Numbered from the stretch's first letter, positions 5,730 to 36,916 are shown. The stretch is DNA of 64,000 nucleotides from Malaciobacter mytili LMG 24559 (GCF_003346775.1 NZ_CP031219.1:2480001-2544000), one strand, 5' to 3'. Numbers and translations: made by a program. Notes: generated by a model not told the origin, from the letters alone.

Positions 5730-5834
5730 TTATTAAATCCAAGTTTAAGATTTTACTAATTTTTAATTTTAAAAACTTATATAATTATAAAAATTATATC
5801 TTAATAGTTGTTAATTTAAAATCTTAAAAAAATC

Positions 5835-5864
5835 TAAGCTTTGAGAGTTATTTCTCAAAGCTTA
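5835..5864 (-). terminator. Rho-independent terminator of the TonB/NnrS/ABC operon
   Basis: A perfect 12-bp stem (5835-5846 with 5853-5864) has a 6-nt loop. On the minus strand it is followed closely by a run of seven T, 20 bp after the TonB receptor stop. Confidence 0.85.
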
Positions 5865-5885
5865 AAACTATAAACTCATACATAA

Positions 5886-7940
5886 TTAAAAGTTAAATCT
5901 TAATCCAACAAACATATATGTACCAGCATTTACTCCTAACTCTTCTTCAACTTTTTTATCAAAAATATTATCTATTCCACCATAAACACTTGCCGTTTTA
6001 TTTATTTTATAATTTAGACCTAAATCAACAAGCGTATAATCATCTGTTTTATCACTATTTTGACTATTTGTATATTGTTCACCAATATATCTAAAAGAAA
6101 GGTTTGTTTTTAAATTATTAGATATTTTGTAATCTAAGCCTAAATAAGCAGATACTTCAGGAGTAAAAGTAAGCTCTTTATTTAATGTTTTATCTTCTGT
6201 GTCTAAATATGTCAGATGGAAATTTGTATTAAAATACTCATTAAAATCATAATCAAGTCTTAATTCAAGTCCATTAATTTCAACTTTATCTAGATTTTCT
6301 GAAGTATAATATTTACTAGCTCCTGCACCATAAGAAACCAGTTCTATTTTATCTTTTATATTTGTATGAAATGCAACAATTTCAGATGAAAAATTATTAT
6401 ATTTGTTTGAAAGTGCTATTTCAAAACTTTGTGATTCTTCAGGTTTTAAATCATAAGAACTTGTTTTTGGTCCATAAATCACATCTGATCCAAATCTTTT
6501 TCCATCTTTATATACAGGAGAAACAACATAAAGTTCTGCAATGTCAGGAGCTCTAAACCCTTGAGAATAGTTAGCTCTTAAAGAAGTGTTTTCAGTAAAT
6601 CTTTGAACAACTCCTGCTTGAAAAGTAACTTTACTATCTGCATTTGAAATATGATCATATCTCGCACCAATAGTTGCATTTAAAGAATCTGTAATACCAA
6701 TTTCATCTTGTAAATAAATAGATTTATAAGTTACTTCTTTTGTAATAAAATCACTTGAATTTGCATTTGGATTAATTGCACTTGAATCTCTTGTCTCTTT
6801 TCTATACTCTGCACCAAATGTAAAAATATTAGAGTCATTTAAAAGATAGGTAGTTGTTGATTCCACATTATCAATTGTTACATTTGCACTAAATTTTTTA
6901 TTTACTGGACCTGCAAAATTAACAGGTGTTGTTTCATTTCTTTTTTTATAATATGATCTATAAAATCTTAAATTTGTTGTTAAATCATTATTTACTTGAT
7001 ATTCAAAATCAGTAGATACATCAACTCTTCTATTATCATCTTTTGATAATATAGGAGTATTTTTTATAAGTCCTCCACCTGCAAATTTTGCATTTCCTAG
7101 GTAAACACCTTCTCTTTCTTCTTTAAAATAATTAAAATCTAATCCTGCTAAAAGCTTTGGTGTTAAATATTTTTCAAATCTTGTTCCAAAACTTAAAACA
7201 GTAGCATCATCCATATAAGTTATATCTTCACTTCCTAAAATACCATTTTGTGGATTTGCTCCTATTACACTTCCTGTATTTGGATTTACAGCAGATTGAG
7301 TATATTTTTTCTTTTTTGTAAAAGGAGTTGAATCTACAATAGAACCAAAAACTTTATAGTTAAAGTAGTCATTTTTCCCAATATTAGTAAAGTTAAAGTT
7401 TTTTTGTTTTGCATCACCTTTATTATTTAAGCCATATTTTAAATCAACTGCTGTTTGAGGTTTTGTTATTTTCTTTGTTATTATATTTATAACACCACCA
7501 ATTGCATCTGAACCATAAAGTGTAGACATAGAGCCTTTTACTATTTCAATTCTTTCTATTATTGAAGCTGGTATTCTATTCATTTCATAAGGATTTTCTG
7601 TTTCAGCTGATAACCTTTTTCCATCTAAAAGAATAAGTGTCCCATTTGCTCCAACACCTCTTATAGAAATAGAAGCTTTTGAAGCAGAACTAGGGTGAGG
7701 AAATCTTGCAAATTGGGCATTTATTGATGGTATTTTTTCCAATACATCTTTTAATGTTGAAGCAGATATTTTCTCAATTTCTTCTTTTGTAACAACTATA
7801 ATTGAAGCACTTACTCCCTCAATATTTTTTTCTGTTTTAGTAGCAGTTGTTACTAAAACTTCTCCTAAATTTGTATTTGCATAAGAATTATTTGTTAAAA
7901 TAATAGCAGTTACACTTGATAAAATAAGACCTTTTTTCAT
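5886..7940 (-). CDS. TonB-dependent outer-membrane receptor
   Basis: The 684-residue receptor has a cleavable signal peptide (about 1-21, ending SYANT). A plug domain follows, with VLVTTATKTEKN, SISIRGVGANGTLILLDGKR and STLYGSDAIGGVINIITKK. The 22-strand barrel ends in a C-terminal aromatic (GLRFNF), as BamA recognition requires. It imports a scarce ligand such as a siderophore, heme or cobalamin-like molecule using TonB energy. It is the last gene of a five-gene operon, 13 bp after the binding-protein gene, with an AGGAAAA Shine-Dalgarno. The overall look is closest to siderophore/heme receptors. The actual ligand is not determinable here. Confidence 0.94.
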   Translation of the reverse strand: MKKGLILSSVTAIILTNNSYANTNLGEVLVTTATKTEKNIEGVSASIIVVTKEEIEKISASTLKDVLEKIPSINAQFARFPHPSSASKASISIRGVGANGTLILLDGKRLSAETENPYEMNRIPASIIERIEIVKGSMSTLYGSDAIGGVINIITKKITKPQTAVDLKYGLNNKGDAKQKNFNFTNIGKNDYFNYKVFGSIVDSTPFTKKKKYTQSAVNPNTGSVIGANPQNGILGSEDITYMDDATVLSFGTRFEKYLTPKLLAGLDFNYFKEEREGVYLGNAKFAGGGLIKNTPILSKDDNRRVDVSTDFEYQVNNDLTTNLRFYRSYYKKRNETTPVNFAGPVNKKFSANVTIDNVESTTTYLLNDSNIFTFGAEYRKETRDSSAINPNANSSDFITKEVTYKSIYLQDEIGITDSLNATIGARYDHISNADSKVTFQAGVVQRFTENTSLRANYSQGFRAPDIAELYVVSPVYKDGKRFGSDVIYGPKTSSYDLKPEESQSFEIALSNKYNNFSSEIVAFHTNIKDKIELVSYGAGASKYYTSENLDKVEINGLELRLDYDFNEYFNTNFHLTYLDTEDKTLNKELTFTPEVSAYLGLDYKISNNLKTNLSFRYIGEQYTNSQNSDKTDDYTLVDLGLNYKINKTASVYGGIDNIFDKKVEEELGVNAGTYMFVGLRFNF

Positions 7941-7953
7941 TTAAATTTTCCTT

Positions 7954-8931
7954 TTAATTAGAGTTATAATATAAATTTTCATTTGGCAAATTACCACCTA
8001 TAAGTTTTGCATTACTATTTTTTAAAATAGTAAAGAAAAACTCTAAATCCTCTTTGGCTTCAAAAGCAGATATACTTTCAAGCTTCACATATTTTATGGA
8101 GTCAGCTAAACCTTTTTCTTCAAGCATAGGAAGTGTTTTAACAACTAAAGTTGCAGCTTTTTGTGGATTTTGTTTATACCAAGCAAGAGATTTTTCATAT
8201 TCTTGTAAAAATCTATTTATAAGTTCTTCTTTACCTTTTGTATTTCCTAAATATGCAATTCCAGCTTGTGGCACTTTTGATTTTGTATTAAAAAGTTTTC
8301 CCCACTCCTCTTGTAAATCAACACTTCTATATAACTCTGGAGCAACTATTTTTATAGGAAAAGAATCTGTTTTTCTCAAAGCTATAGAAATAGCAGGCTC
8401 TGCTAAAAGAGCATGATCTACTCGTCTTAAAATAAGCATTTGCATTGCATCAATTGGATTTGTTACATATTGAATTTTAAAATCTTTCTTAGGATCTAAT
8501 CCATACTTTTTTGTAAGTTCTTGAAAAATAATATCTGGCATATCTGCTCTAAAAGGAATAGCTATTTCTTTACCTTTAAAATCTTTTAAGGTTTTTAAAT
8601 TTGCATCTCGACTTATCATTGCAAGTATTCCCCAAACAGATACATTTAGAAGTTTTAAATCAACTCCTTTATTGTAAAGATTTGAAGCCACATTTGTAGG
8701 TAAAGCTATAAAATCAATATTTGAGTTTAAAATCATTGCTTTTAATTCATCAGGATTTTTCCATAATTTAAACTCGATTTTTTTATTTAAATCCTTTAGT
8801 GCATCATTTTCTATCATATGCATAATAGGGTGTGATACAGAAGCAAAAGGACCAGCTACAACTATTTTATTTTCATCTTTTGCAAAAAGTGATAATAAAA
8901 ACACAAAACTAAATAATAAACTTTTTTTCAT
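7954..8931 (-). CDS. ABC transporter substrate-binding protein (NitT/TauT type)
   Basis: I place the start at the ATG at 8931 rather than 31 codons upstream. It has an AGGAAAATT ribosome site, and it begins a clean signal peptide (MKKSLLFSFVFLLSLFAKDE). The 325-residue protein shows FIALPTNVASNLYNKG, LKTLKDFKGKEIAIPF and the DHALLAEPA segment, as in SsuA/TauA/NrtA-like proteins (COG0715 type). It should bind ligand in the periplasm and hand it to the permease encoded three genes upstream. Its place between nnrS and a TonB receptor suggests the ligand crosses the outer membrane through that receptor. Sulfonate, nitrate and thiamine-precursor binding are family alternatives, but none fits the context clearly. 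Confidence 0.88.
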   Translation of the reverse strand: MKKSLLFSFVFLLSLFAKDENKIVVAGPFASVSHPIMHMIENDALKDLNKKIEFKLWKNPDELKAMILNSNIDFIALPTNVASNLYNKGVDLKLLNVSVWGILAMISRDANLKTLKDFKGKEIAIPFRADMPDIIFQELTKKYGLDPKKDFKIQYVTNPIDAMQMLILRRVDHALLAEPAISIALRKTDSFPIKIVAPELYRSVDLQEEWGKLFNTKSKVPQAGIAYLGNTKGKEELINRFLQEYEKSLAWYKQNPQKAATLVVKTLPMLEEKGLADSIKYVKLESISAFEAKEDLEFFFTILKNSNAKLIGGNLPNENLYYNSN

Positions 8932-8942
8932 AATTTTCCTTT

Positions 8943-10178
8943 TTAACCTTTTATTCCATCTTCTCTTTTTGAGAGTAAAAATGGAAAAAAGATTTTCATA
9001 TATATAATAAATGGTATTGCCCATAAAATAGAAGAAATAAGATATGCTTCAATATTAAACTCTTCATAAAAAGGTATTAAAGTTCTTATAAAAGTTGCTA
9101 AAAGGATTAAAAAAACTCCAAGGTTTAACCAAAGATTTGTAAAAAGCTTTCTTCCCGTATGAATAGTTGAAACAATTATCATCACAATATAAAAAACAAG
9201 ACCAAAAGTACCACTTGTAAGAAAATGTCTAAAGTGATTTAGTGCATATAACTCATCATTTAAATAATCATAAGCCAAAAAAAGATAACCAAGAGCAGTT
9301 ATTAAAATAATACTAATCATATAAATAACAAAAGGCTTTCTTAAAATATTGTAATCTTTTAAAATAAAATCATTTGATATATTTAAAATAGATGCAAAAC
9401 AAGCAAGAGCAAGATATGCTAAAATAGAGTTTTGAGGGAAAAGAAACTCTATAAAAGTATATAAAAGTACACAAAAAATAGCTAGATTATATCTTGGAGC
9501 CTTTGAATAAAAAGTTTCATCAATATTTTCATTTTCCAAAAGTTCATTTATAGCTTCCATATTTATTCTTCTTAATGCAAGTAAAATTAAAACAATAAAA
9601 AATCCTAATGCCAAAAATAAAATAGATGATGACTCTATATTCAAATGCTCTGAAATACTTAAAAAAAACATACTTTGTATAAATAATAATGCAATAAGAT
9701 TAAAAGCTAGTGAAATATGTCTTTTATTTACATCTTTAAATACTGGTTTAGCAATTAATAAAATTATATAAAAGCTTAAAAAAAGGTTTAAAAAAGCTAC
9801 AAGATATACCCCTAAAAAGGATATAAACCAAAAGCTTATTCTTGAAGTTAGCCATAGTAAAACTATAAAAAGAAGTCTTCTTCCTACAATTGGAACAGCC
9901 CCTGGAAACATCTCTGGAACACCAGTTAAAAAAAAAGCAATTATACCTGCACTTCCTATTCCAAAAAGCATTTCATAAATATGCCAAATTAATAAATTAT
10001 CAATAAACTCTAAAGAGATCAAACCACTAAAAGTAAAGCTCCAAAGAATAATAGAAATTACAATATAAGGAGCAAGAATTAAAAATATAGGTCTAAATCC
10101 ATACGCTAAATATATGGGAAAATCTCCTTTTGGATAATATTTATAGTGTTTAGATGCATACTGCTTTTTATTTTCCAT
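8943..10178 (-). CDS. nnrS: NnrS family membrane protein
   Basis: The 411-residue protein is almost entirely hydrophobic, with about twelve predicted membrane helices. It carries the NnrS signatures YGFRPIFL, IWHIYEMLFGIGSAGIIAFFL with GVPEMFPG, and VGRRLLFIVLLWL. NnrS proteins are heme- and copper-containing membrane proteins linked to nitric-oxide tolerance in denitrifiers and pathogens; the conserved His in WHxYEM is a likely ligand. Its ATG overlaps the ATPase stop by one base (TAATG), implying translational coupling. An NnrS inside an ABC/TonB uptake operon is unusual, since it is more often next to denitrification genes. Confidence 0.9.
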   Translation of the reverse strand: MENKKQYASKHYKYYPKGDFPIYLAYGFRPIFLILAPYIVISIILWSFTFSGLISLEFIDNLLIWHIYEMLFGIGSAGIIAFFLTGVPEMFPGAVPIVGRRLLFIVLLWLTSRISFWFISFLGVYLVAFLNLFLSFYIILLIAKPVFKDVNKRHISLAFNLIALLFIQSMFFLSISEHLNIESSSILFLALGFFIVLILLALRRINMEAINELLENENIDETFYSKAPRYNLAIFCVLLYTFIEFLFPQNSILAYLALACFASILNISNDFILKDYNILRKPFVIYMISIILITALGYLFLAYDYLNDELYALNHFRHFLTSGTFGLVFYIVMIIVSTIHTGRKLFTNLWLNLGVFLILLATFIRTLIPFYEEFNIEAYLISSILWAIPFIIYMKIFFPFLLSKREDGIKG

Positions 10179-10927
10179 TATTTTAATTCCAATTCAAAAG
10201 TATTTATAATATATTCATCACTTAAAAGTTTTGCAGTTTGTTCATAAACAAAACTATCATCTCTTTTATCTCTTGCTTTATCAAACTTAAATTTTTTTAC
10301 TATATGTCCTACAGGCTCAGCTTTTAAAACTAAAATTTCATCACTTAGTTTTATTGCTTCCATTAAATCATGTGTAATAAATAAAATACTTAATTTCTCT
10401 TTTTCAATTATTTCAATAAGTAAATTTTGAAGTTCTTTTTTCAAACCAATATCTAAAGCTGAAAAAGGTTCATCTAAAAATAAAAGTGAAGGTTTTACAA
10501 CTAAAGCCCTTGCAAAGGATACTCTTTGTTTCATACCTCCACTTAAATCTTTTGGAAATTTATATAAGTCATCTTCTTGTAATCCAAACTTTATAGCAAT
10601 TTGTTTTGCTAAAACTTGGGCTTTACTTTTTTTAACATTTTTTGCAAGAAGACCTAAACAAATATTATCAAGAACATTTTTCCAAGGAAGAAGTCTTGCT
10701 TCTTGAAATGCAAAAGAACTACTTTTAAAACTATTTTTTATTCTTCCATCTTCAAGTGTCAAAAGTTTTGCACAAAGATGAAGTAAAGTTGTTTTTCCAC
10801 CACCACTTGGACCTACAATAGAAATTACTTGAGCTTTTTTTAGTTCAAAATTTATATTTTTTAAAATTTCTTTAAAACCAAAAGAGAAAGAAACATCTTC
10901 TACTAATAACTGTTCTAATTTCTCCAT
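10178..10927 (-). CDS. ABC transporter ATP-binding protein (NitT/TauT type)
   Basis: The 249-residue ATPase has Walker A GPSGGGKTTLLHL (about 39-51), a Q-loop (FAFQEARLLPWKNV), signature LSGGMKQRVSFARAL, Walker B LLFLDEPFSALD and switch His in ITHDLMEA. The Q-loop ARLLPWKNV wording is typical of the SsuB/TauB/NrtD subgroup. It powers the neighbouring permease. Its start overlaps the permease gene by 13 bp, and its stop overlaps the nnrS start by one base. This subgroup assignment agrees with the binding protein and permease of the operon. Confidence 0.94.
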   Translation of the reverse strand: MEKLEQLLVEDVSFSFGFKEILKNINFELKKAQVISIVGPSGGGKTTLLHLCAKLLTLEDGRIKNSFKSSSFAFQEARLLPWKNVLDNICLGLLAKNVKKSKAQVLAKQIAIKFGLQEDDLYKFPKDLSGGMKQRVSFARALVVKPSLLFLDEPFSALDIGLKKELQNLLIEIIEKEKLSILFITHDLMEAIKLSDEILVLKAEPVGHIVKKFKFDKARDKRDDSFVYEQTAKLLSDEYIINTFELELK

Positions 10928-11697
10928 GCTTCAACCTCTCTTTTAATTGGCTCTAAAATTAAGTACTCAATTAATAATAAACTTCCTATCATAATAACAA
11001 CCAAAGCAAGAGCTGTTGCCGTATCTAATTGACTTCTTGCAATTGCTAAACTAGCACCAATTCCCTCATTTGAAGAGAGTAATTCTGCCATTACAACAAT
11101 TTTCCAAGACATTCCCAAGGCGCTAATCCAAGAGGGAAAAATATAAGAAAAAATATGAGGAAAATATAAATCAACCATCTTCATTTTAAAAGATAAATTA
11201 AAACTATCTGTCATTTGTTTTAAGTCTCCTTCTAAAGTTCTTGTCCCTTGTAAAGCACCTACGAAAATAATAGGGAAAGATGCAACTATAACAGTAAAAA
11301 TTACAGTCATATCACTCATTCCAAACCAAATCATTGCTAAAACAATCCATGCAATGGGTGGCATTCCTACAAGAATTGTAACTATTGGTCTACTCATCAT
11401 AGATGTAGTTACAAATAATCCAGCTAATAAACCTAAAAATGTTCCAATAATAAGTGAAATAAAAAAACCGATTAAAGCTCTTTTTATTGTTATTAATACA
11501 TTAGTAATGGTTTCATCATTTGTAATAATTGAGATTAAAGTTAAAATTGTCTCTTTTGGACTTGGTAAAATCAAATTTCCATATAATTGATTACCTAAAT
11601 CCCAAAGGGCAAAAAAAAGAAAGATTGAAGAAATAGAACCCCAACCACTCCAAAGATAAGAAGGAAAATCTTTTATAATTTTTAATATAAATTTCAT
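10915..11697 (-). CDS. ABC transporter permease (NitT/TauT type)
   Basis: First gene of the five-gene operon. The 260-residue membrane protein has about six helices and the EAA-type cytoplasmic loop; ALGMSWKIVVMAELLSSNEG is characteristic of SsuC/TauC-like permeases. I chose the ATG at 11697 over a GTG two codons earlier because the AGGTG just before it fits as the Shine-Dalgarno. The promoter must lie in the 100-bp divergent region shared with the Crp/Fnr-type regulator. The transported ligand is unknown. Confidence 0.92.
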   Translation of the reverse strand: MKFILKIIKDFPSYLWSGWGSISSIFLFFALWDLGNQLYGNLILPSPKETILTLISIITNDETITNVLITIKRALIGFFISLIIGTFLGLLAGLFVTTSMMSRPIVTILVGMPPIAWIVLAMIWFGMSDMTVIFTVIVASFPIIFVGALQGTRTLEGDLKQMTDSFNLSFKMKMVDLYFPHIFSYIFPSWISALGMSWKIVVMAELLSSNEGIGASLAIARSQLDTATALALVVIMIGSLLLIEYLILEPIKREVEAWRN

Positions 11698-11738
11698 ATG
11701 CACCTAAATTAAATATTTTTTCTAATTTTAATGAAAAC

Positions 11739-11757
11739 AATAGTGATTATCAATGAC
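11739..11757. promoter_or_regulatory. Possible Fur-type box in the divergent promoter region
   Basis: By hand alignment, 13 of 19 bases match the classical Fur consensus GATAATGATAATCATTATC. It lies 42 bp upstream of the permease ATG, in front of an operon ending in a TonB receptor, which makes iron control reasonable. AT-rich background raises the chance of a false match. Confidence 0.3.
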
Positions 11758-11766
11758 TTAAATCAA
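11753..11766. promoter_or_regulatory. Candidate Crp/Fnr-type operator 1
   Basis: ATGACTTAAATCAA matches the family pattern TTGA-N6-TCAA at 7 of 8 fixed positions. It lies between the regulator gene and the operon and overlaps the Fur-like match. Confidence 0.35.
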
Positions 11767-11777
11767 CAAATCTTAAG

Positions 11778-11791
11778 TTGATATAAGTTAA
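11778..11791. promoter_or_regulatory. Candidate Crp/Fnr-type operator 2
   Basis: TTGATATAAGTTAA matches TTGA-N6-TCAA at 7 of 8 fixed positions. It ends 8 bp before the regulator ATG, so binding there could give autorepression. Confidence 0.3.
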
Positions 11792-11799
11792 GATTTTTT

Positions 11800-12435
11800 A
11801 TGTATAAAGATATATTAAAAAAAATAGACTTTTTTAAACTATTAAATGAAGAAGAAATTGAATTAATCAATAACTCATGCAAAATAATCACATTAAATAA
11901 AAATAATATACTTTTTTATGAGGGTGATTTTGCAAAATCTTTTTATATTATGCTTCAAGGAAGATTGAAACTGTATAAAACTGGAACTATGGGAAATGAG
12001 ATAATAATTCATAGTTTTAATAAACCAACAATATTTGCTGAAATGGCAACTTTTCAAGAATCAACTTTTCCTGCAACAGCTATTAGTACTAGTAATCTTA
12101 CAAAAGTTGCAATTTTAGAAAAAAAAATATTTATTTCTCTTTTACAAAATAATGCTAATTTATCATTTCATATTATAGGTTCACTTATAAAAAAGATGAA
12201 AACTTTAGAACAAACAATTCACCGTAATTTAGTATATGATGCAACACAAAAAGTATGTTCACTTTTAAAAGAGAAGCCTAATATATTAATTGAAAAAAAA
12301 CATTCTGAAATTGCTAATAAATTAAATATGGCACCTGAAACACTATCAAGATCACTAAAAAAAATTAAAGAAAAAGGATATATAAATCAAAATAATATTG
12401 TAATAGATAGTTCTTTTTATGAAATATTACATTAA
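11800..12435 (+). CDS. Crp/Fnr-family transcriptional regulator
   Basis: The 211-residue protein has an N-terminal cyclic-nucleotide-binding-like beta-roll (about 15-125; ILFYEGDFAKSFYIMLQGRL, FAEMATFQE). A C-terminal Crp-type winged helix follows, whose recognition region is SEIANKLNMAPETLSRSLKK (about 168-187). Only two cysteines are visible and they are not clustered, so it does not look like an iron-sulfur FNR. It is closer to heme- or ligand-sensing DNR/NnrR/Crp-like members. It is divergent from the ABC-NnrS-TonB operon and is the obvious candidate to control it. NO or oxygen as the signal is inference from the NnrS neighbour. Confidence 0.9.
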   Translation: MYKDILKKIDFFKLLNEEEIELINNSCKIITLNKNNILFYEGDFAKSFYIMLQGRLKLYKTGTMGNEIIIHSFNKPTIFAEMATFQESTFPATAISTSNLTKVAILEKKIFISLLQNNANLSFHIIGSLIKKMKTLEQTIHRNLVYDATQKVCSLLKEKPNILIEKKHSEIANKLNMAPETLSRSLKKIKEKGYINQNNIVIDSSFYEILH

Positions 12436-12456: not shown

Positions 12457-12485
12457 AGTCAAAGTATAAAATTATACTTTTGACT
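12457..12485. terminator. Convergent hairpin between the regulator and nhaA copy 1
   Basis: An 8-bp stem (12461-12468 with 12473-12480) is extended by four more pairs around a one-base bulge. It overlaps the nhaA stop codon. On the minus strand it is followed by TTATTTTAAAAAAATTG, so it probably terminates nhaA; for the regulator it is weaker. Confidence 0.5.
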
Positions 12486-13653
12486 CACTGTTTGAAGTAG
12501 TTCTTTTAAGAACTAAATAACCAAATATTCCAGAAATAAAAGAACCTAATAAAATAGCTAGTTTATCAGTAAAAGCGAATAATGAATCATCTGTAAAAGC
12601 CAATGAATCAACAAATAAACTCATGGTAAATCCAATACCTGTTAATATTGCTACTCCATAGAGCTGTTTAAAGTTTGCTCCCTCTGGCAATGTTGCTAAT
12701 TTTAATTTTATAGCAATATATGAAAATCCAAAAACACCAATTTGTTTACCTAAAAATAATCCAAGCATAATTCCTAAAGGTACACTTGTAGCTAATTGAT
12801 TTATAGAAATATTTCTTAAATCTACTCCTGCATTTACAAATGCAAAAAGAGGTAAAATTAAAAATATAACCCAGTAGTGTAATGAATGTTCCATCTCTTT
12901 TAACATAGAAAATTCTTTACCATTTTCATCTCTAGATTTTAAAGGAATAGTAAAAGCTAATGCAACTCCAGCTAGTGTAGCATGAACTCCTGATTTTAAT
13001 ACAGATACCCATAAAATTACCCCAAGAAGAATATAAGCGGCTGGTTTTATAACTTTAAATCTATTTAAAGCAATAAGTCCAACTAAAGCCACACTTGCAA
13101 TAACAATTGAAGTGATAGATAAATCTGTAGTATAAAATAATGCAATAACAACAATGGCACCTAAGTCATCAATAATCGCTAAAGCCATTAAAAATATTTT
13201 TAATGAAACAGGAACTCTACTACCAAGAAGTGATAAAATACCTAAAGCAAAAGCAATATCCGTTGCAGTTGGTATTGCCCAACCTCTCATGGCAACTTCA
13301 TCACCAATATTAAAATAAACATATACTAAAGCAGGTACAACCATACCACCAACTGCTGCAATTGCAGGAAGTGTTATTTGTTTTACACTAGAAAGATGTC
13401 CTTCAAGTAATTCTCTTTTTACTTCAAGACCAATAAGAAAGAAAAATATAGCCATAAGACCATCATTTATCCATAGAAGTAAAGGTTTTGCAATATTTAA
13501 TGCTCCAAATCTAATCTCCACTGGAGTATGTAAAAATGCATCATAAATAGGCGAAAAATCTGTATTTTTTAATATTAATGCGGCAATAGTTACAAAAATA
13601 AGAACTATTCCCGCACTTGACTCTTTCTTAATAAAATCTTCAATTGTAAACAT
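12472..13653 (-). CDS. nhaA: Na+/H+ antiporter NhaA, copy 1
   Basis: NhaA exchanges cytoplasmic Na+ or Li+ for protons in the inner membrane, controlling pH and salt. The 393-residue length and roughly twelve helices are normal. The ion-binding Asp pair is present in ALAIIDDLGAIVVIALFY, and the PTATDIAFALGIL helix carries the third conserved Asp. LIGLEVKRELLEGHLSS is also diagnostic. The ATG has an AGGAG ribosome site. It lies 149 bp downstream of adhesin 1, after a terminator. A second, clearly paralogous nhaA lies at 36917-38104 on the far side of the two adhesin genes. Confidence 0.96.
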   Translation of the reverse strand: MFTIEDFIKKESSAGIVLIFVTIAALILKNTDFSPIYDAFLHTPVEIRFGALNIAKPLLLWINDGLMAIFFFLIGLEVKRELLEGHLSSVKQITLPAIAAVGGMVVPALVYVYFNIGDEVAMRGWAIPTATDIAFALGILSLLGSRVPVSLKIFLMALAIIDDLGAIVVIALFYTTDLSITSIVIASVALVGLIALNRFKVIKPAAYILLGVILWVSVLKSGVHATLAGVALAFTIPLKSRDENGKEFSMLKEMEHSLHYWVIFLILPLFAFVNAGVDLRNISINQLATSVPLGIMLGLFLGKQIGVFGFSYIAIKLKLATLPEGANFKQLYGVAILTGIGFTMSLFVDSLAFTDDSLFAFTDKLAILLGSFISGIFGYLVLKRTTSNSESKV

Positions 13654-13776
13654 AAATCTCCTCTTTTTTTATTTTAAGTTTATACAATTATTCTTTGAAT
13701 AACTTTAAAATGTAAGATTATTATATCTTTGTTTTTTTAATGAAATTTAAATAAAATTCTTTTATATCTAAATTAT

Positions 13777-13804
13777 AAAAAGAGAAGATTACTCTTCTCT
13801 TTTT
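13777..13804 (-). terminator. Terminator overlapping the adhesin 1 stop codon
   Basis: A perfect 12-bp stem (13777-13788 with 13793-13804) has a 4-nt loop. Its arms are A- and T-rich at the base, so it could act in both directions. It uses the first bases of the stop codon region. Confidence 0.75.
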
Positions 13805-16800
13805 AAATAGTTGGATCTACACTAATATCTTCATCTATTAAAATCTTGATATTTGAATTTCCATTTTGATAAACATTAAATTTTTCTCCATCTATTGTCT
13901 CTTGAGTATTTGATTTTTCCCAATTACCTTCTAATTTAACTCTATCTTCTTTTGATTCATCTCCAAATATTTTAAGAAGATGTTGATTATTTGTTAAATC
14001 TTCAACACTTTCATCTTTTATAATAATACTATCAAGTGTATTATTAGTTAAATCTATCTCATTTGTAGTAGGCTGTGTGCTATCATTTATAAAGTTACTT
14101 AAATTTATCACTTGATCTAAATACATATTATCTGGTTCATTAATAGTTGTATTTATTGCATTATCATCTACAACTACCTTTTCATAACCATCACCACCAC
14201 TTACAACTTTATCAATAGAAACTTCAAAATGATTTTCTCCTTCATTTTTTCCTAAATCTACTGTTACACTTACAACTGATGTTCCAGAACCATCTAATGA
14301 AGAAGAGTTATTTCCTATCCATCCAATAATAAAACTATTATCATCTGTTACTTCTACACTTATACTATCCCAAGCTAAATTATCAACTGAGTCTAATAAA
14401 CTACCTGTTCCATTTGTTACACATACTTGGTCAGAAATAGCTTTTCCATTACTATCAAAAATACGATAATAAATAGGTGCATCGCTTGAAGCTGTATCAT
14501 GCCAAACTGCAACAAAATTTCCATCACCAAGTGCTTTTACAATTGCAGGACCAGCATATGTATGTCCAGAAGCAGTACTTGTATTAACTTGCGTTTCACT
14601 CCCTGGTATTACTTTACCTGTTGAAGAATCAATTACTGCTATCATTGGAGCATCATTACCTGAATTATCTGTATTTCTTACCCAGCCAACTACAATATTT
14701 CCATTTGATAAAGTTTCTAAATTTAATAAAGGAACATTAATAGAACTCCATCCATCTATACTATTTTGTGTTAAAACAAATTGATCTGTAGCTGCAGTTC
14801 CATCTTCATTAAATACTCTTGCATAAAGTTTTCTATAACTTCCCGCATTATCAGAACCTGCACCTCCATACCAAATAGTCATAAACTTACCACCATCTAA
14901 TTCAACTATTCGAGGAGCAGATTCATAAGCTCCTGGATTATCTTTTCCTCTTACATCAACATCACTTGCCACACTAAAATCACTATCTGTTGGATTTTTA
15001 GTTGGGTCTATAATATTTACTATTGGTTTATGTCCACCTTTTCCATATTCATTTGCTATACCTACTACTACTTTTCCATTAGATAACTCTTCCACATATA
15101 TATTTTGTTCATGATTACCCCATGTAGTTTGATCAACATTACCCTTTCCAACTCTAAACTCATCACTTACAGCATTTCCATTTGCATCAAAAATTCTTCC
15201 ATAAACAGTAGCATTACTTCCACCACCTATATTTTTAACATAAACAGCTAACAATCTACCATCTGATAAAACTGTAAGAATAGGTGCACTTTCATGAGTT
15301 GTTGTATCATTTTGTTGAATAGAAACATCTTTATTTACAAAAAACTCTGAACTACTTGAGTCTTTACTTGGGTCTATTACTGTCATTATTGGTTTTTGGC
15401 TACCATCATACGCTGCATATCCAATTATAATATTTCCATTATCCATAACTTTTATATCAAGTCCTTTTACAAACCAATAGTCACCATTTAATTCTGATGC
15501 ACTTTTATCACTTATTGTAAAAGTATCTACTTTTACATTTCCAAAAGCATCATATATTTTACCTTTTAAATAGTTTGAAGTATTACTTGATGTATTATCA
15601 CCCCATACATATAATACATCTCCATTATCAAGTTTTGTTACTATTGGTGCTGATTGATTTCCACTTCCATGTCCTGTATTTATTACAGTTACATCTCCTG
15701 TAGAATCAGGTTCTACTAAATAGTTATCATTTACAATTTCTACTTCAAAATCTACTTCAGTTGCTCCTTTTGGTATAGTAACCTCTTTTACTTCTACTAT
15801 ATCTTCATTTGTAGTTGGATCTTTATAAGTATATTTTACTGATACTTTCATATCTTCAAGTGCTACAATAGGATTTCCATTATCATCTGTTAAAGTTACT
15901 TTATATTTAGCACTTTCACCTTCGATAACGTCTGTTTCTATTCCTTCAATTTTTACATTTATATTATCTACATCATCTTTTATTGTTGTCTCTACTGATG
16001 AATCATCAATAGCAACTTTTTCAAATTGATCTGTATTTGTTACACTATCTATAGAAATTTCAAATTTCTCATCACTTTCTTTATATACATTATCTACAGT
16101 TTCAACTTCAAAACTTGCTTCACTTTCTCCAGCTTTAATTGTTACTGTTTTTACTTCTGTTATATCTTCTCCTGAAGCTGTTGTATATGTATATGTGAAT
16201 TTTACTTCCATATCCTCTTTTGCAATTACTGCTTTTCCATTTTCATCAGTTAAAGCTACTTTATATGTGGCACTATTACCCTCTTCAACTGTTGAATCTC
16301 CACTTAATTTTATATTTACAGTATCACCTGGAGTATCATCTTTAATAATAGTTTCAACTCCTATTTCATCTATTGTAACTTTTTCAAATTGATCTGTATT
16401 TGTAATACTTACTATTTCTATATAAAATTTCTCTGCATCTTCTGCATATACATCATCAAGAGTTTTTATATCTATGCTTGTAGAGCTTTCTCCTGCTTTT
16501 ATAGTTACAGTTCCTACTTTTTCTATATTTTTACCATCTAATGTTGTAAATGTATATTTAAAAGTTACTATCATATCCTCTTTTGCTATTACTTTATTTC
16601 CATCATCATCTGTAAGTGTTACTTCATATGTTGCTGTTTCACCTTCACTTATTGTATCTCCTTCTTCTATAACTCTACTTCCATCTGCATTAAATTTTTG
16701 TGTATATATTGGTCTTTCTGATGAAGAACTACCTTCCCAAGTTACTATATAAGAACCATCTGCTAATACTGTTATTTGCGGATTAATATCAAATCCTGCT

Positions 16801-19800
16801 GTATTACCTATTGATTCTAATTTTACATTTTCTCCATCCATTGTTCCATCAGGATTAAATTTTTGTACAAAGATTGACCAATCTCCACCTGCATCTACTC
16901 CTTGCCATGTTACTACATAAGATCCATCTTTTAAAGCTATTATTTGTGGTGATATATCAGCGCCCACATTATTATCTACTTTTTCTAATTGTACTGTTTC
17001 TTCAACTTTACTTCCATCAGAATCAAACTGTTGTACAAATATTGAAGAAGTTCCTTGACTATCACTTCCACTCCATGTTATTACATACCCTCCATTTGCT
17101 AAAATAGTTATTTGTGGATTAAAATCATTTCCTGTTGTATTATCCAAGGCTTCTAATTGTACTACTTCTCCAGCTTTACTTCCATCAGAGTTAAACTGTT
17201 GTACAAATATTGAAAAATCTCCTTGACTATCTAATCCTGACCATGTTACTACATAAGATCCATCTTCTAATGTTTCTATTTGTTGATGAGCATCATTTGT
17301 TCTTATAAAATCTGAGGCTTCTAATTGTACAGCTGAACCATCTTTACTTCCATCAGAATTAAACTGTTGTACAAATAGTGAATAATTTCCTTGGCTATCT
17401 TTTTCTCTCCAAAGTACCACATATCCTCCATCATTTAATTCAGTTATTTTTGCCATAGAATTAGGAGTACTCTTTATTATTTCTATTTCACCTACTTTAA
17501 CTCCATCTGCATCAAACTGTTGAATAAATATTTCTCCATTCGCTTTACTTCCAACTGCTGCATATCCTCCATTTGCTAAAAGAGTTATGTCTATTGTAGA
17601 AATATCTGTTCCAAATCCTATAGTCTCTCCTACTTTACTTCCATTAGAGTTAAACTGTTGTACATAAGTACCATAATCATAATTTGCACAACTTAATATA
17701 TATCCTCCATCTTCTAAGCTAACTATTTTTGCTGAATCCTTTGCACCTTTTACTTCTACAGTATCTCCTATTTTTTCATCATTAGCATTATATTGTTGTA
17801 AAAACAAAGAAAGTTTTCCTGTACTATTTTGTGCAAACCAAGTTACTACATATCCTCCATCTTTTAAAGCTGTTATTTGAGGACCAAATCCTATATTCAC
17901 AACCTTTTCTGTTGTATATTCTCTTTCTTCACCACTTGCAACTAAATTTATATTTACATTATCGGCAGGAGTATCATCTTTAATAATAGTTTCAACTCCT
18001 ATTTCATCTATTGTAACTTTTTCAAATTGATCTGCATTTGTGATACTTACTATTTCTATATAAAATTTCTCTGCATCTTCTGCATATACATCATCAAGAG
18101 TTTTTATATCTATACTTACAGAACTTTCTCCTGCTTTTATAGTTACAGTTCCTACTTTTTCTATATTTTCACCATCTAATGTTGTAAATGTATATTTAAA
18201 AGTTACTACCATATCCTCTTTTGCTATTACTTCATTTCCATCATCATCTGTAAGTGTTACTTCATATGTTGCTGTTTCACCTTCACTTATTGTATCTCCT
18301 TCTTCTATAACCATACTTCCATCTGCATTAAATTTTTGTACTTTTATACTTCCTTCATTCCAATATCCAGAAGAAGTAACTATATATGATCCATCTGCTA
18401 ATACTGTAACTGAATGTTCATATGAATCATATAGTACTTCTGTAACTTCTGTAGCAGGTGTTCCATCAGAATTAAATTGTTGTGCAAATAAAGTAAATTT
18501 TCCTTGACTATTGTATGCAGACCATGTTACTACATATGATCCATCTAATAGTTCTGTCATCTTTAACTTTAAAGCCCAAGATGTTCCATTTGCATCTATT
18601 TGTACAACTTCTCCACTAAGTGTTCCATCACTATTAAATTTTTGTATATAAAAATTTGTATTAAGATCAGCTTCATCTTGTCCCCACCAACCAATAATAT
18701 ATGTTCCATCTGCTAACTCTGTTATCTGAGGAGTCTCTTTATTATAATTATATTTATAGTTTGGAGCTTTTAGTTCAATAGTACTTCCACTTAATGTACC
18801 ATCACTATTAAATTTTTGTGTAAAACAAGACCAAGTTCCTTGTTCATTTTCTCCATACCATGTCACAATATAAGAGCCATCACTTAAACTCTCCATTCCT
18901 TGGTGTTGATCTCTTCCATCTGTTTTATTTACTCCTTCAAGTTGAATCATTTCTCCTACTTTACTTCCATCAGAGTTAAATTGTTGAACAAATATTGACA
19001 TATCACCTTCACTATCATTTCCCCACCAACTAACAGCATATGAGCCATCTGCTAAAGTTACAATTTTTGGATCATATTCCCATTTTGCAGAGTTTAAATT
19101 AACTATATTTCCATCAGTTGTTCCATCTGCATTAAATTTTTGTACATTAATAGATAGATTATTATCTTTATTTTGCCAAACTATAATATATGATCCATCA
19201 GGAAATGTTGTTATATCTTTATATATGTTGCCTGAAGAATCTTTAAAAATATTCATTTCTATTATACTTCCATCTTTTGTTCCATCAGGATTAAATCTTT
19301 GTGTATATAAAGAATTATTATTAACTAATTCATCAGAACTTTTTCCAAGCCAAACTACTATATATGAACCATCTTCAAAACTTTCTATTTGAAGGTTTTC
19401 TCGCCTAGCAGCTTCATGGGCATTCTCACTAAAAACTACAGTATCTCCTAATTTATTTCCACTATTATCAAATTTTTGTACAGATGTTTCCCAGAATCCA
19501 TCACTATTTTTTGTAATCCAAGTCATAGCATATGTACCATCTTCAAATGTTGTAATATCTGCATATGAACCTTTAACTATAGTTTCTAATTTATATTCTC
19601 TTTCTTCACCACTTGCAACTAAATTTACATTTACATTATCTACATCATCTTTTATTGTTGTCTCAACAGGTGTACTATCAATAGTTATCTTTTCAAATGC
19701 ATTAGTATTTGATACAGTATTTATATTGATTTTAAAACTTTCATCACCCTCTTTATATACATTATCTACAGTTTCCACTTCAAAACTTACTTCACTTTGT

Positions 19801-22800
19801 CCAGCTTTAATTGTTACTGTTTTTACTTCTGTTATATCTTCCCCTGAAGCTGTTGTATATGTATATGTAAATTTTACTTCCATATCCTCTTTTGCAATTA
19901 CTGCTTTTCCATTTTCATCAGTTAAAGTTACTTTATATGCCGCATTTTCTCCTTCAGTAACACTTGTATCTCCACTTAGCTTTACTTTTACCACATCTTC
20001 ATCATCACTTATTGTTGTTGAAACTGCTGTACTATCTGCTTCTAGTTTTTCAAAGCTTGCTCCACCACTTACTTCTTTTATTGAGTTTGAAATTGAATCA
20101 CTCTCTTTATATACATCATCTCTATTTACTGTTGTTGTTGCAGTTCCACTTGACTCACCTGCTTTTATTGTAATTGTTTCACCATTACTTAATGTGATTT
20201 TTACATCTTCTTTTGCTACAACTGAAGTTCCATTCTCATCTACTAAGTTTACTGTATATGTGATCTCTCCACCATCTTCACTTACGCTTGATGTTGCACT
20301 TAATTTTGCTTTTACCACATCTTCATCATCACTTATTGTTGTTGAAACTGCTGTACTATCTGCTTCTAGTTTTTCAAAGCTTGCTCCACCGCTTACTTCT
20401 TTTATTGAGTTTGAAATTGAATCACTCTCTTTATATACATCATCTCTATTTACTGTTGTTGTTGCAGTTCCACTTGACTCACCTGCTTTTATTGTAATTG
20501 TTTCACCATTACTTAATGTGATTTTTACATCTTCTTTTGCAACTGTTGCTGTTCCATTCTCATCTACTAAGTTTACTGTATATGTGATCTCTCCACCATC
20601 TTCACTTACGCTTGATGTTGCACTTAATTTTGCTTTTACCACATCTTCATCATCACTTATTGTTGTTGAAACTGCTGTACTATCTGCTTCTAGTTTTTCA
20701 AAGCTTGCTCCACCACTTACTTCTTTTATTGAGTTTGAAATTGAATCACTCTCTTTATATACATCATCTCTATTTACTGTTGTTGTTGCAGTTCCACTTG
20801 ACTCACCTGCTTTTATTGTAATTGTTTCACCATTACTTAATGTGATTTTTACATCTTCTTTTGCTACAACTGAAGTTCCATTCTCATCTACTAAGTTTAC
20901 TGTATATGTGATCTCTCCACCATCTTCACTTACGCTTGATGTTGCACTTAATTTTGCTTTTACCACATCTTCATCATCACTTATTGTTGTTGAAACTGCT
21001 GTACTATCTGCTTCTAGTTTTTCAAAGCTTGCTCCACCACTTACTTCTTTTATTGAGTTTGAAATTGAATCACTCTCTTTATATACATCATCTCTATTTA
21101 CTGTTGTTGTTGCAGTTCCACTTGACTCACCTGCTTTTATTGTAATTGTTTCACCATTACTTAATGTGATTTTTACATCTTCTTTTGCTACAACTGAAGT
21201 TCCATTCTCATCTACTAAGTTTACTGTATATGTGATCTCTCCACCATCTTCACTTACGCTTGATGTTGCACTTAATTTTGCTTTTACCACATCTTCATCA
21301 TCACTTATTGTTGTTGAAACTGCTGTACTATCTGCTTCTAGTTTTTCAAAGCTTGCTCCACCACTTACTTCTTTTATTGAGTTTGAAATTGAATCACTCT
21401 CTTTATATACATCATCTCTATTTACTGTTGTTGTTGCAGTTCCACTTGACTCACCTGCTTTTATTGTAATTGTTTCACCATTACTTAATGTGATTTTTAC
21501 ATCTTCTTTTGCTACAACTGAAGTTCCATTCTCATCTACTAAGTTTACTGTATATGTGATCTCTCCACCATCTTCACTTACGCTTGATGTTGCACTTAAT
21601 TTTGCTTTTACCACATCTTCATCATCACTTATTGTTGTTGAAACTGCTGTACTATCTGCTTCTAGTTTTTCAAAGCTTGCTCCACCACTTACTTCTTTTA
21701 TTGAGTTTGAAATTGAATCACTCTCTTTATATACATCATCTCTATTTACTGTTGTTGTTGCAGTTCCACTTGACTCACCTGCTTTTATTGTAATTGTTTC
21801 ACCATTACTTAATGTGATTTTTACATCTTCTTTTGCTACAACTGAAGTTCCATTCTCATCTACTAAGTTTACTGTATATGTGATCTCTCCACCATCTTCA
21901 CTTACGCTTGATGTTGCACTTAATTTTGCTTTTACCACATCTTCATCATCACTTATTGTTGTTGAAACTGCTGTACTATCTGCTTCTAGTTTTTCAAAGC
22001 TTGCTCCACCACTTACTTCTTTTATTGAGTTTGAAATTGAATCACTCTCTTTATATACATCATCTCTATTTACTGTTGTTGTTGCAGTTCCACTTGACTC
22101 ACCTGCTTTTATTGTAATTGTTTCACCATTACTTAATGTGATTTTTACATCTTCTTTTGCTACAACTGAAGTTCCATTCTCATCTACTAAGTTTACTGTA
22201 TATGTGATCTCTCCACCATCTTCACTTACGCTTGATGTTGCACTTAATTTTGCTTTTACCACATCTTCATCATCACTTATTGTTGTTGAAACTGCTGTAC
22301 TATCTGCTTCTAGTTTTTCAAAGCTTGCTCCACCACTTACTTCTTTTATTGAGTTTGAAATTGAATCACTCTCTTTATATACATCATCTCTATTTACTGT
22401 TGTTGTTGCAGTTCCACTTGACTCACCTGCTTTTATTGTAATTGTTTCACCATTACTTAATGTGATTTTTACATCTTCTTTTGCTACAACTGAAGTTCCA
22501 TTCTCATCTACTAAGTTTACTGTATATGTGATCTCTCCACCATCTTCACTTACGCTTGATGTTGCACTTAATTTTGCTTTTACCACATCTTCATCATCAC
22601 TTATTGTTGTTGAAACTGCTGTACTATCTGCTTCTAGTTTTTCAAAGCTTGCTCCACCACTTACTTCTTTTATTGAGTTTGAAATTGAATCACTCTCTTT
22701 ATATACATCATCTCTATTTACTGTTGTTGTTGCAGTTCCACTTGACTCACCTGCTTTTATTGTAATTGTTTCACCATTACTTAATGTGATTTTTACATCT

Positions 22801-25800
22801 TCTTTTGCTACAACTGAAGTTCCATTCTCATCTACTAAGTTTACTGTATATGTGATCTCTCCACCATCTTCACTTACGCTTGATGTTGCACTTAATTTTG
22901 CTTTTACCACATCTTCATCATCACTTATTGTTGTTGAAACTGCTGTACTATCTGCTTCTAGTTTTTCAAAGCTTGCTCCACCACTTACTTCTTTTATTGA
23001 GTTTGAAATTGAATCACTCTCTTTATATACATCATCTCTATTTACTGTTGTTGTTGCAGTTCCACTTGACTCACCTGCTTTTATTGTAATTGTTTCACCA
23101 TTACTTAATGTGATTTTTACATCTTCTTTTGCAACTGTTGCTGTTCCATTCTCATCTACTAAGTTTACTGTATATGTGATCTCTCCACCATCTTCACTTA
23201 CGCTTGATGTTGCACTTAATTTTGCTTTTACCACATCTTCATCATCACTTATTGTTGTTGAAACTGCTGTACTATCTGCTTCTAGTTTTTCAAAGCTTGC
23301 TCCACCGCTTACTTCTTTTATTGAGTTTGAAATTGAATCACTCTCTTTATATACATCATCTCTATTTACTGTTGTTGTTGCAGTTCCACTTGACTCACCT
23401 GCTTTTATTGTAATTGTTTCACCATTACTTAATGTGATTTTTACATCTTCTTTTGCAACTGTTGCTGTTCCATTCTCATCTACTAAGTTTACTGTATATG
23501 TGATCTCTCCACCATCTTCACTTACGCTTGATGTTGCACTTAATTTTGCTTTTACCACATCTTCATCATCACTTATTGTTGTTGAAACTGCTGTACTATC
23601 TGCTTCTAGTTTTTCAAAGCTTGCTCCACCACTTACTTCTTTTATTGAGTTTGAAATTGAATCACTCTCTTTATATACATCATCTCTATTTACTGTTGTT
23701 GTTGCAGTTCCACTTGACTCACCTGCTTTTATTGTAATTGTTTCACCATTACTTAATGTGATTTTTACATCTTCTTTTGCTACAACTGAAGTTCCATTCT
23801 CATCTACTAAGTTTACTGTATATGTGATCTCTCCACCATCTTCACTTACGCTTGATGTTGCACTTAATTTTGCTTTTACCACATCTTCATCATCACTTAT
23901 TGTTGTTGAAACTGCTGTACTATCTGCTTCTAGTTTTTCAAAGCTTGCTCCACCACTTACTTCTTTTATTGAGTTTGAAATTGAATCACTCTCTTTATAT
24001 ACATCATCTCTATTTACTGTTGTTGTTGCAGTTCCACTTGACTCACCTGCTTTTATTGTAATTGTTTCACCATTACTTAATGTGATTTTTACATCTTCTT
24101 TTGCTACAACTGAAGTTCCATTCTCATCTACTAAGTTTACTGTATATGTGATCTCTCCACCATCTTCACTTACGCTTGATGTTGCACTTAATTTTGCTTT
24201 TACCACATCTTCATCATCACTTATTGTTGTTGAAACTGCTGTACTATCTGCTTCTAGTTTTTCAAAGCTTGCTCCACCACTTACTTCTTTTATTGAGTTT
24301 GAAATTGAATCACTCTCTTTATATACATCATCTCTATTTACTGTTGTTGTTGCAGTTCCACTTGACTCACCTGCTTTTATTGTAATTGTTTCACCATTAC
24401 TTAATGTGATTTTTACATCTTCTTTTGCTACAACTGAAGTTCCATTCTCATCTACTAAGTTTACTGTATATGTGATCTCTCCACCATCTTCACTTACGCT
24501 TGATGTTGCACTTAATTTTGCTTTTACCACATCTTCATCATCACTTATTGTTGTTGAAACTGCTGTACTATCTGCTTCTAGTTTTTCAAAGCTTGCTCCA
24601 CCGCTTACTTCTTTTATTGAGTTTGAAATTGAATCACTCTCTTTATATACATCATCTCTATTTACTGTTGTTGTTGCAGTTCCACTTGACTCACCTGCTT
24701 TTATTGTAATTGTTTCACCATTACTTAATGTGATTTTTACATCTTCTTTTGCAACTGTTGCTGTTCCATTCTCATCTACTAAGTTTACTGTATATGTGAT
24801 CTCTCCACCATCTTCACTTACGCTTGATGTTGCACTTAATTTTGCTTTTACCACATCTTCATCATCACTTATTGTTGTTGAAACTGCTGTACTATCTGCT
24901 TCTAGTTTTTCAAAGCTTGCTCCACCACTTACTTCTTTTATTGAGTTTGAAATTGAATCACTCTCTTTATATACATCATCTCTATTTACTGTTGTTGTTG
25001 CAGTTCCACTTGACTCACCTGCTTTTATTGTAATTGTTTCACCATTACTTAATGTGATTTTTACATCTTCTTTTGCTACAACTGAAGTTCCATTCTCATC
25101 TACTAAGTTTACTGTATATGTGATCTCTCCACCATCTTCACTTACGCTTGATGTTGCACTTAATTTTGCTTTTACCACATCTTCATCATCACTTATTGTT
25201 GTTGAAACTGCTGTACTATCTGCTTCTAGTTTTTCAAAGCTTGCTCCACCACTTACTTCTTTTATTGAGTTTGAAATTGAATCACTCTCTTTATATACAT
25301 CATCTCTATTTACTGTTGTTGTTGCAGTTCCACTTGACTCACCTGCTTTTATTGTAATTGTTTCACCATTACTTAATGTGATTTTTACATCTTCTTTTGC
25401 TACAACTGAAGTTCCATTCTCATCTACTAAGTTTACTGTATATGTGATCTCTCCACCATCTTCACTTACGCTTGATGTTGCACTTAATTTTGCTTTTACC
25501 ACATCTTCATCATCACTTATTGTTGTTGAAACTGCTGTACTATCTGCTTCTAGTTTTTCAAAGCTTGCTCCACCACTTACTTCTTTTATTGAGTTTGAAA
25601 TTGAATCACTCTCTTTATATACATCATCTCTATTTACTGTTGTTGTTGCAGTTCCACTTGACTCACCTGCTTTTATTGTAATTGTTTCACCATTACTTAA
25701 TGTGATTTTTACATCTTCTTTTGCTACAACTGAAGTTCCATTCTCATCTACTAAGTTTACTGTATATGTGATCTCTCCACCATCTTCACTTACGCTTGAT

Positions 25801-36676: not shown

Positions 36677-36719
36677 AAGAAACTCCTTTTATCATCTTGA
36701 GCTAATTTAATGATAAAAA

Positions 36720-36737
36720 AGTTTCTAAAAAGTTTCT
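36720..36737 (-). promoter_or_regulatory. 18-bp element upstream of adhesin 2, shared with adhesin 1
   Basis: The same AGAAACTTTTTAGAAACT sequence as at 29069-29086, 44 bp before the start codon. The ribosome-site region (minus strand GGAGTTTCTTATG) contains AGTTTCT, the reverse complement of the repeat half. A transcript carrying the element could therefore fold over the ribosome site. Confidence 0.55.
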
Positions 36738-36916
36738 AAAATAAAATAAAATAATAATTATTATCATTAAATTTAATAAAATAGATTATTATAAAGACAC
36801 TCAAATATTATTTTTGTTTTTTATTGGTTATTTGGAAGATTATTTTATATAAGATTTTTTTTAAAAAAATTTTAAAAAAAATTTAAATAATTTGTATATT
36901 TTATAAAATTTCTCTT

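Follow-up and report, generated by a model that had tools for sequence, protein, structure and literature searches.

A five-gene operon on the minus strand of Malaciobacter mytili LMG 24559 (positions 5886-11697 of the 64,000-nt stretch of DNA analysed, referred to here as the window) appears to encode an iron-chelate importer, repressed by Fur and activated by an FNR-type regulator, that would serve anoxic, denitrifying growth and in which NnrS would be the heme-bearing inner-membrane partner, either reducing the chelate or shielding its iron from nitric oxide (NO). The probability of this reading is put at slightly above one half (about 0.52). The Fur-type and FNR-type boxes of the promoter, the iron genes neighbouring related loci, the siderophore-type receptor, and the co-occurrence with denitrification genes together suggest that anoxic denitrifying cells use the operon to take up an iron chelate, and since nnrS is locked to the ATPase gene, its product is most simply seen as an inner-membrane heme partner of the importer. 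The operon, its conserved unit, the predicted promoter boxes, the co-occurrence and the predicted folds are all read from sequence. The promoter and a heme-copper oxidase fold for NnrS, both absent from a preliminary description of this DNA, were added by the present analysis.

Operon Organization

The features of the operon and its upstream region are as follows.

5833-5866, minus strand: intrinsic terminator, 14-pair stem and T run
5886-7940, minus strand: TonB-dependent receptor, CirA/FepA-like, 684 aa, Plug and barrel domains
7954-8931, minus strand: periplasmic binding protein, NMT1/SsuA-like, 325 aa, PF09084 (NMT1)
8943-10178, minus strand: NnrS-family 12-TM protein, 411 aa, PF05940 (242.6 bits)
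10178-10927, minus strand: ABC ATPase, 249 aa, PF00005 (ABC_tran)
10915-11697, minus strand: NitT/TauT-type permease, 260 aa, PF00528 (48 bits)
11725-11730, minus strand: predicted -10 hexamer TAAAAT
11739-11757, minus strand: Fur-type box GTCATTGATAATCACTATT, 14/19 to consensus, overlapping the promoter
11753-11766, minus strand: FNR-type box TTGATTTAAGTCAT, matching consensus except at its last base and centred 29.5 bp upstream of the -10, conserved in relatives
11778-11791, strand not assigned: second Crp/Fnr-type site TTGATATAAGTTAA, separated from the divergent crp gene by 8 bp
11800-12435, plus strand: divergent Crp/Fnr-family regulator, 211 aa, assigned by HMM family and sequence comparison

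Read 5′ to 3′, the order is permease, ATPase, nnrS, binding protein, TonB receptor, and terminator. The preliminary description of a single operon with overlapping or 11-13 bp spaced genes and one strong shared terminator is confirmed, as the ATPase gene overlaps the permease gene by 13 nt and nnrS by 1 nt, gaps of 11 and 13 bp flank the binding protein gene on its nnrS and receptor sides, and the 14-pair stem with its T run lies at 5866-5833. The permease starts at the ATG at 11697, where the proteins of relatives also begin, and the binding protein, whose N-terminus resembles a signal peptide in its sequence, starts at 8931, the alternative at 9024 being over-long.

An NMT1-type binding protein, a permease assigned by HMM to BPD_transp_1, and a class-matching ABC ATPase place the importer in the NitT/TauT-type ABC class. 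The best NCBIfam match of the permease, SaoP, falls short of its cut-off (107 versus 295 bits), and its PDB match is NrtB (8w9m, E 4e-13). The NnrS protein matches PF05940 over its full length (residues 23-405, 242.6 bits against a gathering cut-off of 28).

Elsewhere in the window, 13803-29024 holds a 5073-aa open reading frame with 26 nearly identical 324-bp (108-aa) repeats (99% matches, 19973-28415), although the number of copies may reflect estimation during assembly. At 29366-38104, another giant repeat protein (2436 aa, with a 393-bp repeat in three identical copies) precedes an NhaA-like gene (36917-38104), and the two are apparently a tandem duplicate of the NhaA and giant-protein pair at 12472-29024.

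Conservation across Relatives

Gene neighbourhoods were compared in Arcobacteraceae and other Campylobacterales families. Clear orthologs of the binding protein are present in 56 of 104 Arcobacteraceae genomes, and nnrS lies directly 3′ of the ATPase gene in 81/81 loci with this ATPase, drawn from two sets of loci, with an overlap of 1 base in 38 and of 4 bases in 27; the permease-ATPase overlap is 13 in 69 loci. This coupling is well beyond chance. A check for the outcome that would have refuted the preliminary description, an order conserved in no relative, found the order in relatives instead. Permease, ATPase, and NnrS form one block, which the binding protein follows in the window and precedes in other loci, and in some relatives the binding protein is present but the block is not. 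In Campylobacter-type loci, an SBP-permease-ATPase series is followed by a divergent NnrS gene (PF05940 E 4e-40 and 1e-29). A scan of 84,980 species genomes returned 303 relatives, of which the best 80 were retained; these best 80 of 303 include Arcobacter, Malaciobacter, Poseidonibacter, Sulfurimonas, Sulfuricurvum, and Candidatus Thiomargarita, as well as Gammaproteobacteria MAGs (Thiotrichales-like) bearing the block.

Judged from these sequence comparisons, the conserved core is permease-ATPase-NnrS together with the binding protein, and the outer-membrane receptor is interchangeable. Of the fixed five-gene composition first described, this core stands, and the TonB receptor proves frequent but replaceable. 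The divergent Crp/Fnr-type regulator is present at 11800-12435 as described; it is seldom retained, standing divergent to the operon in only 6 of the clustered loci (window included), and the Crp gene was rejected as a conserved part of the system.

The outer-membrane partner in 47 fully covered loci is a TBDR in 28, a TonB-copper-like barrel in 3, and a PF13557 barrel in 2, with none recognised in 14. The nearest solved sequence to the window receptor is CirA (2hdf, E 2e-44), to which it is closer than to PqqU/YncD; Plug and barrel are both matched, and the CirA/FepA-type equivalog cut-offs are not reached. A heme receptor was rejected, the TonB-hemin match being below cut-off and no histidine lying between the FRAP-like and LKPE motifs. 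The TonB-copper-like barrel of Campylobacter-type loci (TIGR01778, 175-180 bits against a family cut-off of 472) aligns without its plug part.

Several arrangements outside this pattern were also observed. In loci L213, L214, L218, and L196, a PF13557 barrel accompanies the binding protein with no ABC block nearby, and some of these adjoin FTR1 or a Fur-family regulator. Two Campylobacter-type loci (L140, L141) pair the TonB-copper-like barrel and a related binding protein with a following FecB/FecC/FecD-type ABC importer and have no permease-ATPase-NnrS. A membrane protein of 135-141 aa with weak HemJ/DUF2269 similarity adjoins the receptor or binding protein in 12 loci (L033-L066, e.g., L034 11943-12368) and is possibly a second heme protein of the system.

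Promoter Architecture

In the aligned promoters, TTGAY-N4-RTCAA is followed by TGATAATNANTATCA and that in turn by TATAAT. The distance from the start of the FNR-type box to the start of the best -10 match is 36 bases, which places the box centre at -41.5, the position of a class II activator, and the Fur site lies between the FNR-type box and the -10, or downstream of the -10 in some relatives. The window has the same layout (11766-11725), with both boxes imperfect. Membership in a Fur regulon is accordingly a prediction from a box that overlies the promoter and scores 14/19 in the window, and membership in an FNR/DNR-type regulon is predicted from TTGAY-N4-RTCAA at class II spacing, with one mismatch in the window copy.

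In the 120 bp before operon genes, the Fur-type score averages 14.1/19 (n = 76 operon upstreams) versus 11.8 (n = 460) before other genes of the same loci (p 6e-19), and the FNR-type box precedes 36/70 operon genes versus 36/450 controls (p 7e-17); both tests use related genomes, so these p-values overstate the independent evidence, and the fixed spacing to the predicted -10 is the stronger argument. Fur boxes score lower in Campylobacter-type loci. A perfect Fur box occurs only once in the genome, before feoAB, and loose Fur-type sites are not enriched genome-wide (48 versus 55 in a reversed-pattern control), for which reason reliance is placed on positional conservation and same-locus controls. 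In this genome, nap and nir are preceded at a comparable distance by the same kind of FNR-type box, and the divergent Crp/Fnr regulator shares 36% identity with the regulator beside the nir cluster. Riboswitch control was rejected, as none was found in the window or in seven named loci.

Co-Occurrence with Denitrification Genes

The genome (3.04 Mb, Arcobacteraceae-type) encodes a complete denitrification pathway: nap, nirS, and norCB lie together in one region, and nosZ is present as well. Presence was taken from search outputs for 104 family genomes, drafts included, which are related and not independent; on this basis the counts for both/operon only/gene only/neither are 37/19/7/41 for nirS (odds ratio 11), 36/20/8/40 for nosZ (odds ratio 9), and 35/21/5/43 for cNorB (odds ratio 14). 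Within genera, the three associations give p of 2e-5 to 3e-6. Nine operon-positive genomes have none of nirS, norB, and nosZ, and several of the nine retain the FNR-type box, which suggests that the operon responds to anoxia rather than to NO alone. nnrS had been described as usually near denitrification genes; location is not the link here, and the association persists as co-occurrence with nirS/norB/nosZ and a common FNR-type box.

The association with nosZ could also arise if the system took up copper destined for N2O reductase and oxidases and NnrS were a copper/heme protein of the delivery path, and both the TonB-copper-like barrel of Campylobacter-type loci and the listing of NnrS as a cuproprotein (PMC6769254) are in keeping with this. 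However, that barrel scores far under its family cut-off, Fur-type boxes precede the operon, its neighbours include iron genes, and 20/56 operon genomes lack nosZ. Copper uptake is therefore a weaker explanation than uptake of an iron chelate, and one that we consider improbable.

NnrS Clade, Predicted Fold, and Candidate Metal Sites

To our knowledge, NnrS is a heme/copper protein of the membrane that has been linked to NO but has been assigned no defined activity. NnrS of the operon type (>219 bits) occurs in 53 family genomes, all of which have the binding protein (53/53), and a second, non-operon type is found in most family genomes. Phylogenetic analysis of 54 proteins resolves operon, Campylobacter-type, and second-copy NnrS as three groups with strong support. 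The second nnrS of this genome (L089 4248-5438, around 638268) adjoins msrP/msrQ-like genes and a peroxiredoxin gene, not denitrification genes.

These data bear on the possibility that the operon encodes an iron importer in which NnrS has no part in transport and is co-expressed only to prevent dinitrosyl complexes of incoming or labile iron during denitrification. In many proteobacteria NnrS is part of NO-responsive regulons (PMC1274295), and in V. cholerae it is reported to protect the iron pool from dinitrosyl-iron formation (PMC9246220, citing doi 10.1128/JB.00836-13); the co-occurrence of the operon with norB and nirS and its FNR-type box agree with such a role. Yet shared regulation would not require coupling to one ATPase as tight as that seen (81/81), a second NnrS is already at hand near msrPQ in this genome, with the non-operon type in most of the family, and nine operon-positive genomes have no nirS, norB, or nosZ. 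Mere co-expression for protection is thus judged distinctly unlikely.

The NnrS model (pLDDT 90, 12 helices) superimposes on the cbb3 oxidase subunit CcoN (8smr_E) with Z 29.8 over 376 residues at 3.4 A and on cNOR (4xyd) with Z 28.8, both scores far exceeding the helical-protein background, and a heme-copper oxidase subunit-I fold is predicted accordingly. NnrS shows no profile match to NorB, hhalign against the NorB of this genome giving a probability of 0.1%; an attempted proof of the oxidase fold by sequence failed in this way, and the fold link rests on predicted structure. We are aware of no earlier report of this fold for NnrS in the open-access literature.

H66 (TM2) and H318 (TM10) are invariant in all three NnrS groups and H340 is nearly so, which makes these residues candidate heme/metal ligands. 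Helix order pairs H66 and H318 with the oxidase low-spin heme ligands. No CuB/FeB histidines are present in TM6/TM7 of the window NnrS (helices 183-216 and 227-246).

Binding Protein and Candidate Ligands

The nearest folds to the binding protein model (pLDDT 90.7) are 3hn0 (Z 31.6), a structure without known ligand, and then PqqT with PQQ (Z 28), the nearest ligand-bound fold. Together with the NMT1/SsuA sequence similarity, this match raises the option of an organic ligand, as bound by many NMT1-type proteins: a sulfonate, nitrate, a thiamine precursor, or a redox cofactor such as PQQ. Against it, every relevant NCBIfam cut-off is missed (SsuA_fam 51/163.5, TauB 164/357, NtrB 70/209 bits), the window and the seven named loci have no riboswitch, no quinoprotein of the PF01011 family is encoded in the genome, the receptor is nearer CirA than PqqU/YncD, and a Fur-type box is present. 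Sulfonate, nitrate, thiamine, and PQQ are consequently poorly supported as ligands, and an organic ligand, for which we see little prospect, is a weaker explanation than an iron chelate. The PQQ route in particular was rejected on the missing PF01011 enzyme and the receptor, and a search of open-access literature on PqqT with a solute-binding protein returned nothing.

Fur-type boxes, feoB, FTR1, and Fur regulator genes as neighbours among the loci, and the CirA/FepA-like receptor favour a metal-related ligand. Of the preliminary proposal of one uptake route for a metal- or heme-related ligand, the single route is probable and the metal is favoured on these grounds, and heme has no specific support.

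Proposed Mechanism

From the above we infer iron as the cargo, direct contact between NnrS and the importer, and a redox or shielding role for NnrS. The iron-chelate system would be expressed when iron is scarce and the cell is anoxic or denitrifying. The TonB receptor, or the alternative barrel in relatives, would pass the chelate across the outer membrane, the NMT1-type binding protein would capture it, and permease and ATPase would carry inward either the chelate or its iron. Produced in step with the ATPase, NnrS would lie next to the importer in the inner membrane; with a predicted low-spin heme site kept and the TM6/TM7 histidines absent, it would not be expected to catalyse O2 or NO reduction in the manner of oxidases and NO reductases, and could act as a one-electron heme relay reducing the incoming ferric chelate. 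Alternatively, it could shield incoming iron from trapping by NO, as reported for V. cholerae (PMC9246220), and both roles are proposed. That this clade is an oxidase-fold protein without a catalytic metal site and an obligatory redox subunit of the ABC importer, reducing ferric chelate at the membrane during denitrification, is a narrower claim and seems rather unlikely.

Several points count against the iron-chelate reading as a whole. The NMT1/NitT class is not known as the usual importer class for iron chelates, an organic cofactor is the ligand of PqqT, the nearest ligand-bound fold, 14/47 fully covered loci have no recognised outer-membrane partner, and nine operon-positive genomes have no nirS, norB, or nosZ. 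The window boxes are imperfect (Fur 14/19, FNR one base off), Fur boxes are weaker in Campylobacter-type loci, loose Fur sites number 48 against 55 in the control genome-wide, and NnrS has no NorB profile match.

A promoter with predicted switches for iron shortage and for anoxia or nitrate breathing gives NnrS a testable role, and a large NnrS clade tied to one ABC importer under predicted Fur/FNR-type control turns the question of NnrS into an iron-transport experiment. If correct, the reading would tie denitrification to iron acquisition in both Campylobacterota and sulfur-oxidising Gammaproteobacteria, and the fold predicted for NnrS would provide a structural basis for its heme.

Comparison with Known Systems

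No description of this importer-NnrS system was found in the open-access literature. The NitT/TauT-type importers NrtABCD, SsuABC, and TauABC share its permease, ATPase, and NMT1-type binding protein families, whereas the operon scores under all of their substrate-specific cut-offs and has a TonB receptor, NnrS, and Fur-type boxes. Its binding protein is closest among ligand-bound folds to PqqT, yet with 17-18% identity and in a genome without PF01011 quinoproteins. With the NnrS family (PF05940) it shares the full-length match, the invariant TM2 and TM10 histidines, and the link to denitrification; unlike the known NnrS of NO regulons (PMC1274295), the operon NnrS forms a clade of its own, is tied to an ABC importer, and lies under a Fur-type box. 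The catalytic subunits of heme-copper oxidases and NO reductases share the 12-TM fold predicted for NnrS (Z about 29), with low-spin heme ligands placed alike, whereas NnrS lacks the TM6/TM7 CuB/FeB histidines and any detectable profile similarity.

A parallel in overall plan is the FpvA-FpvCDEF-FpvGHJK system of Pseudomonas, a TonB-dependent ferric-siderophore route with an inner-membrane reductase. Both combine a receptor, a binding protein, an ABC importer, an inner-membrane redox protein, and Fur; in the operon the importer would be of an unrelated class, NnrS would replace the Fpv reductase, and FNR-type activation would be added.
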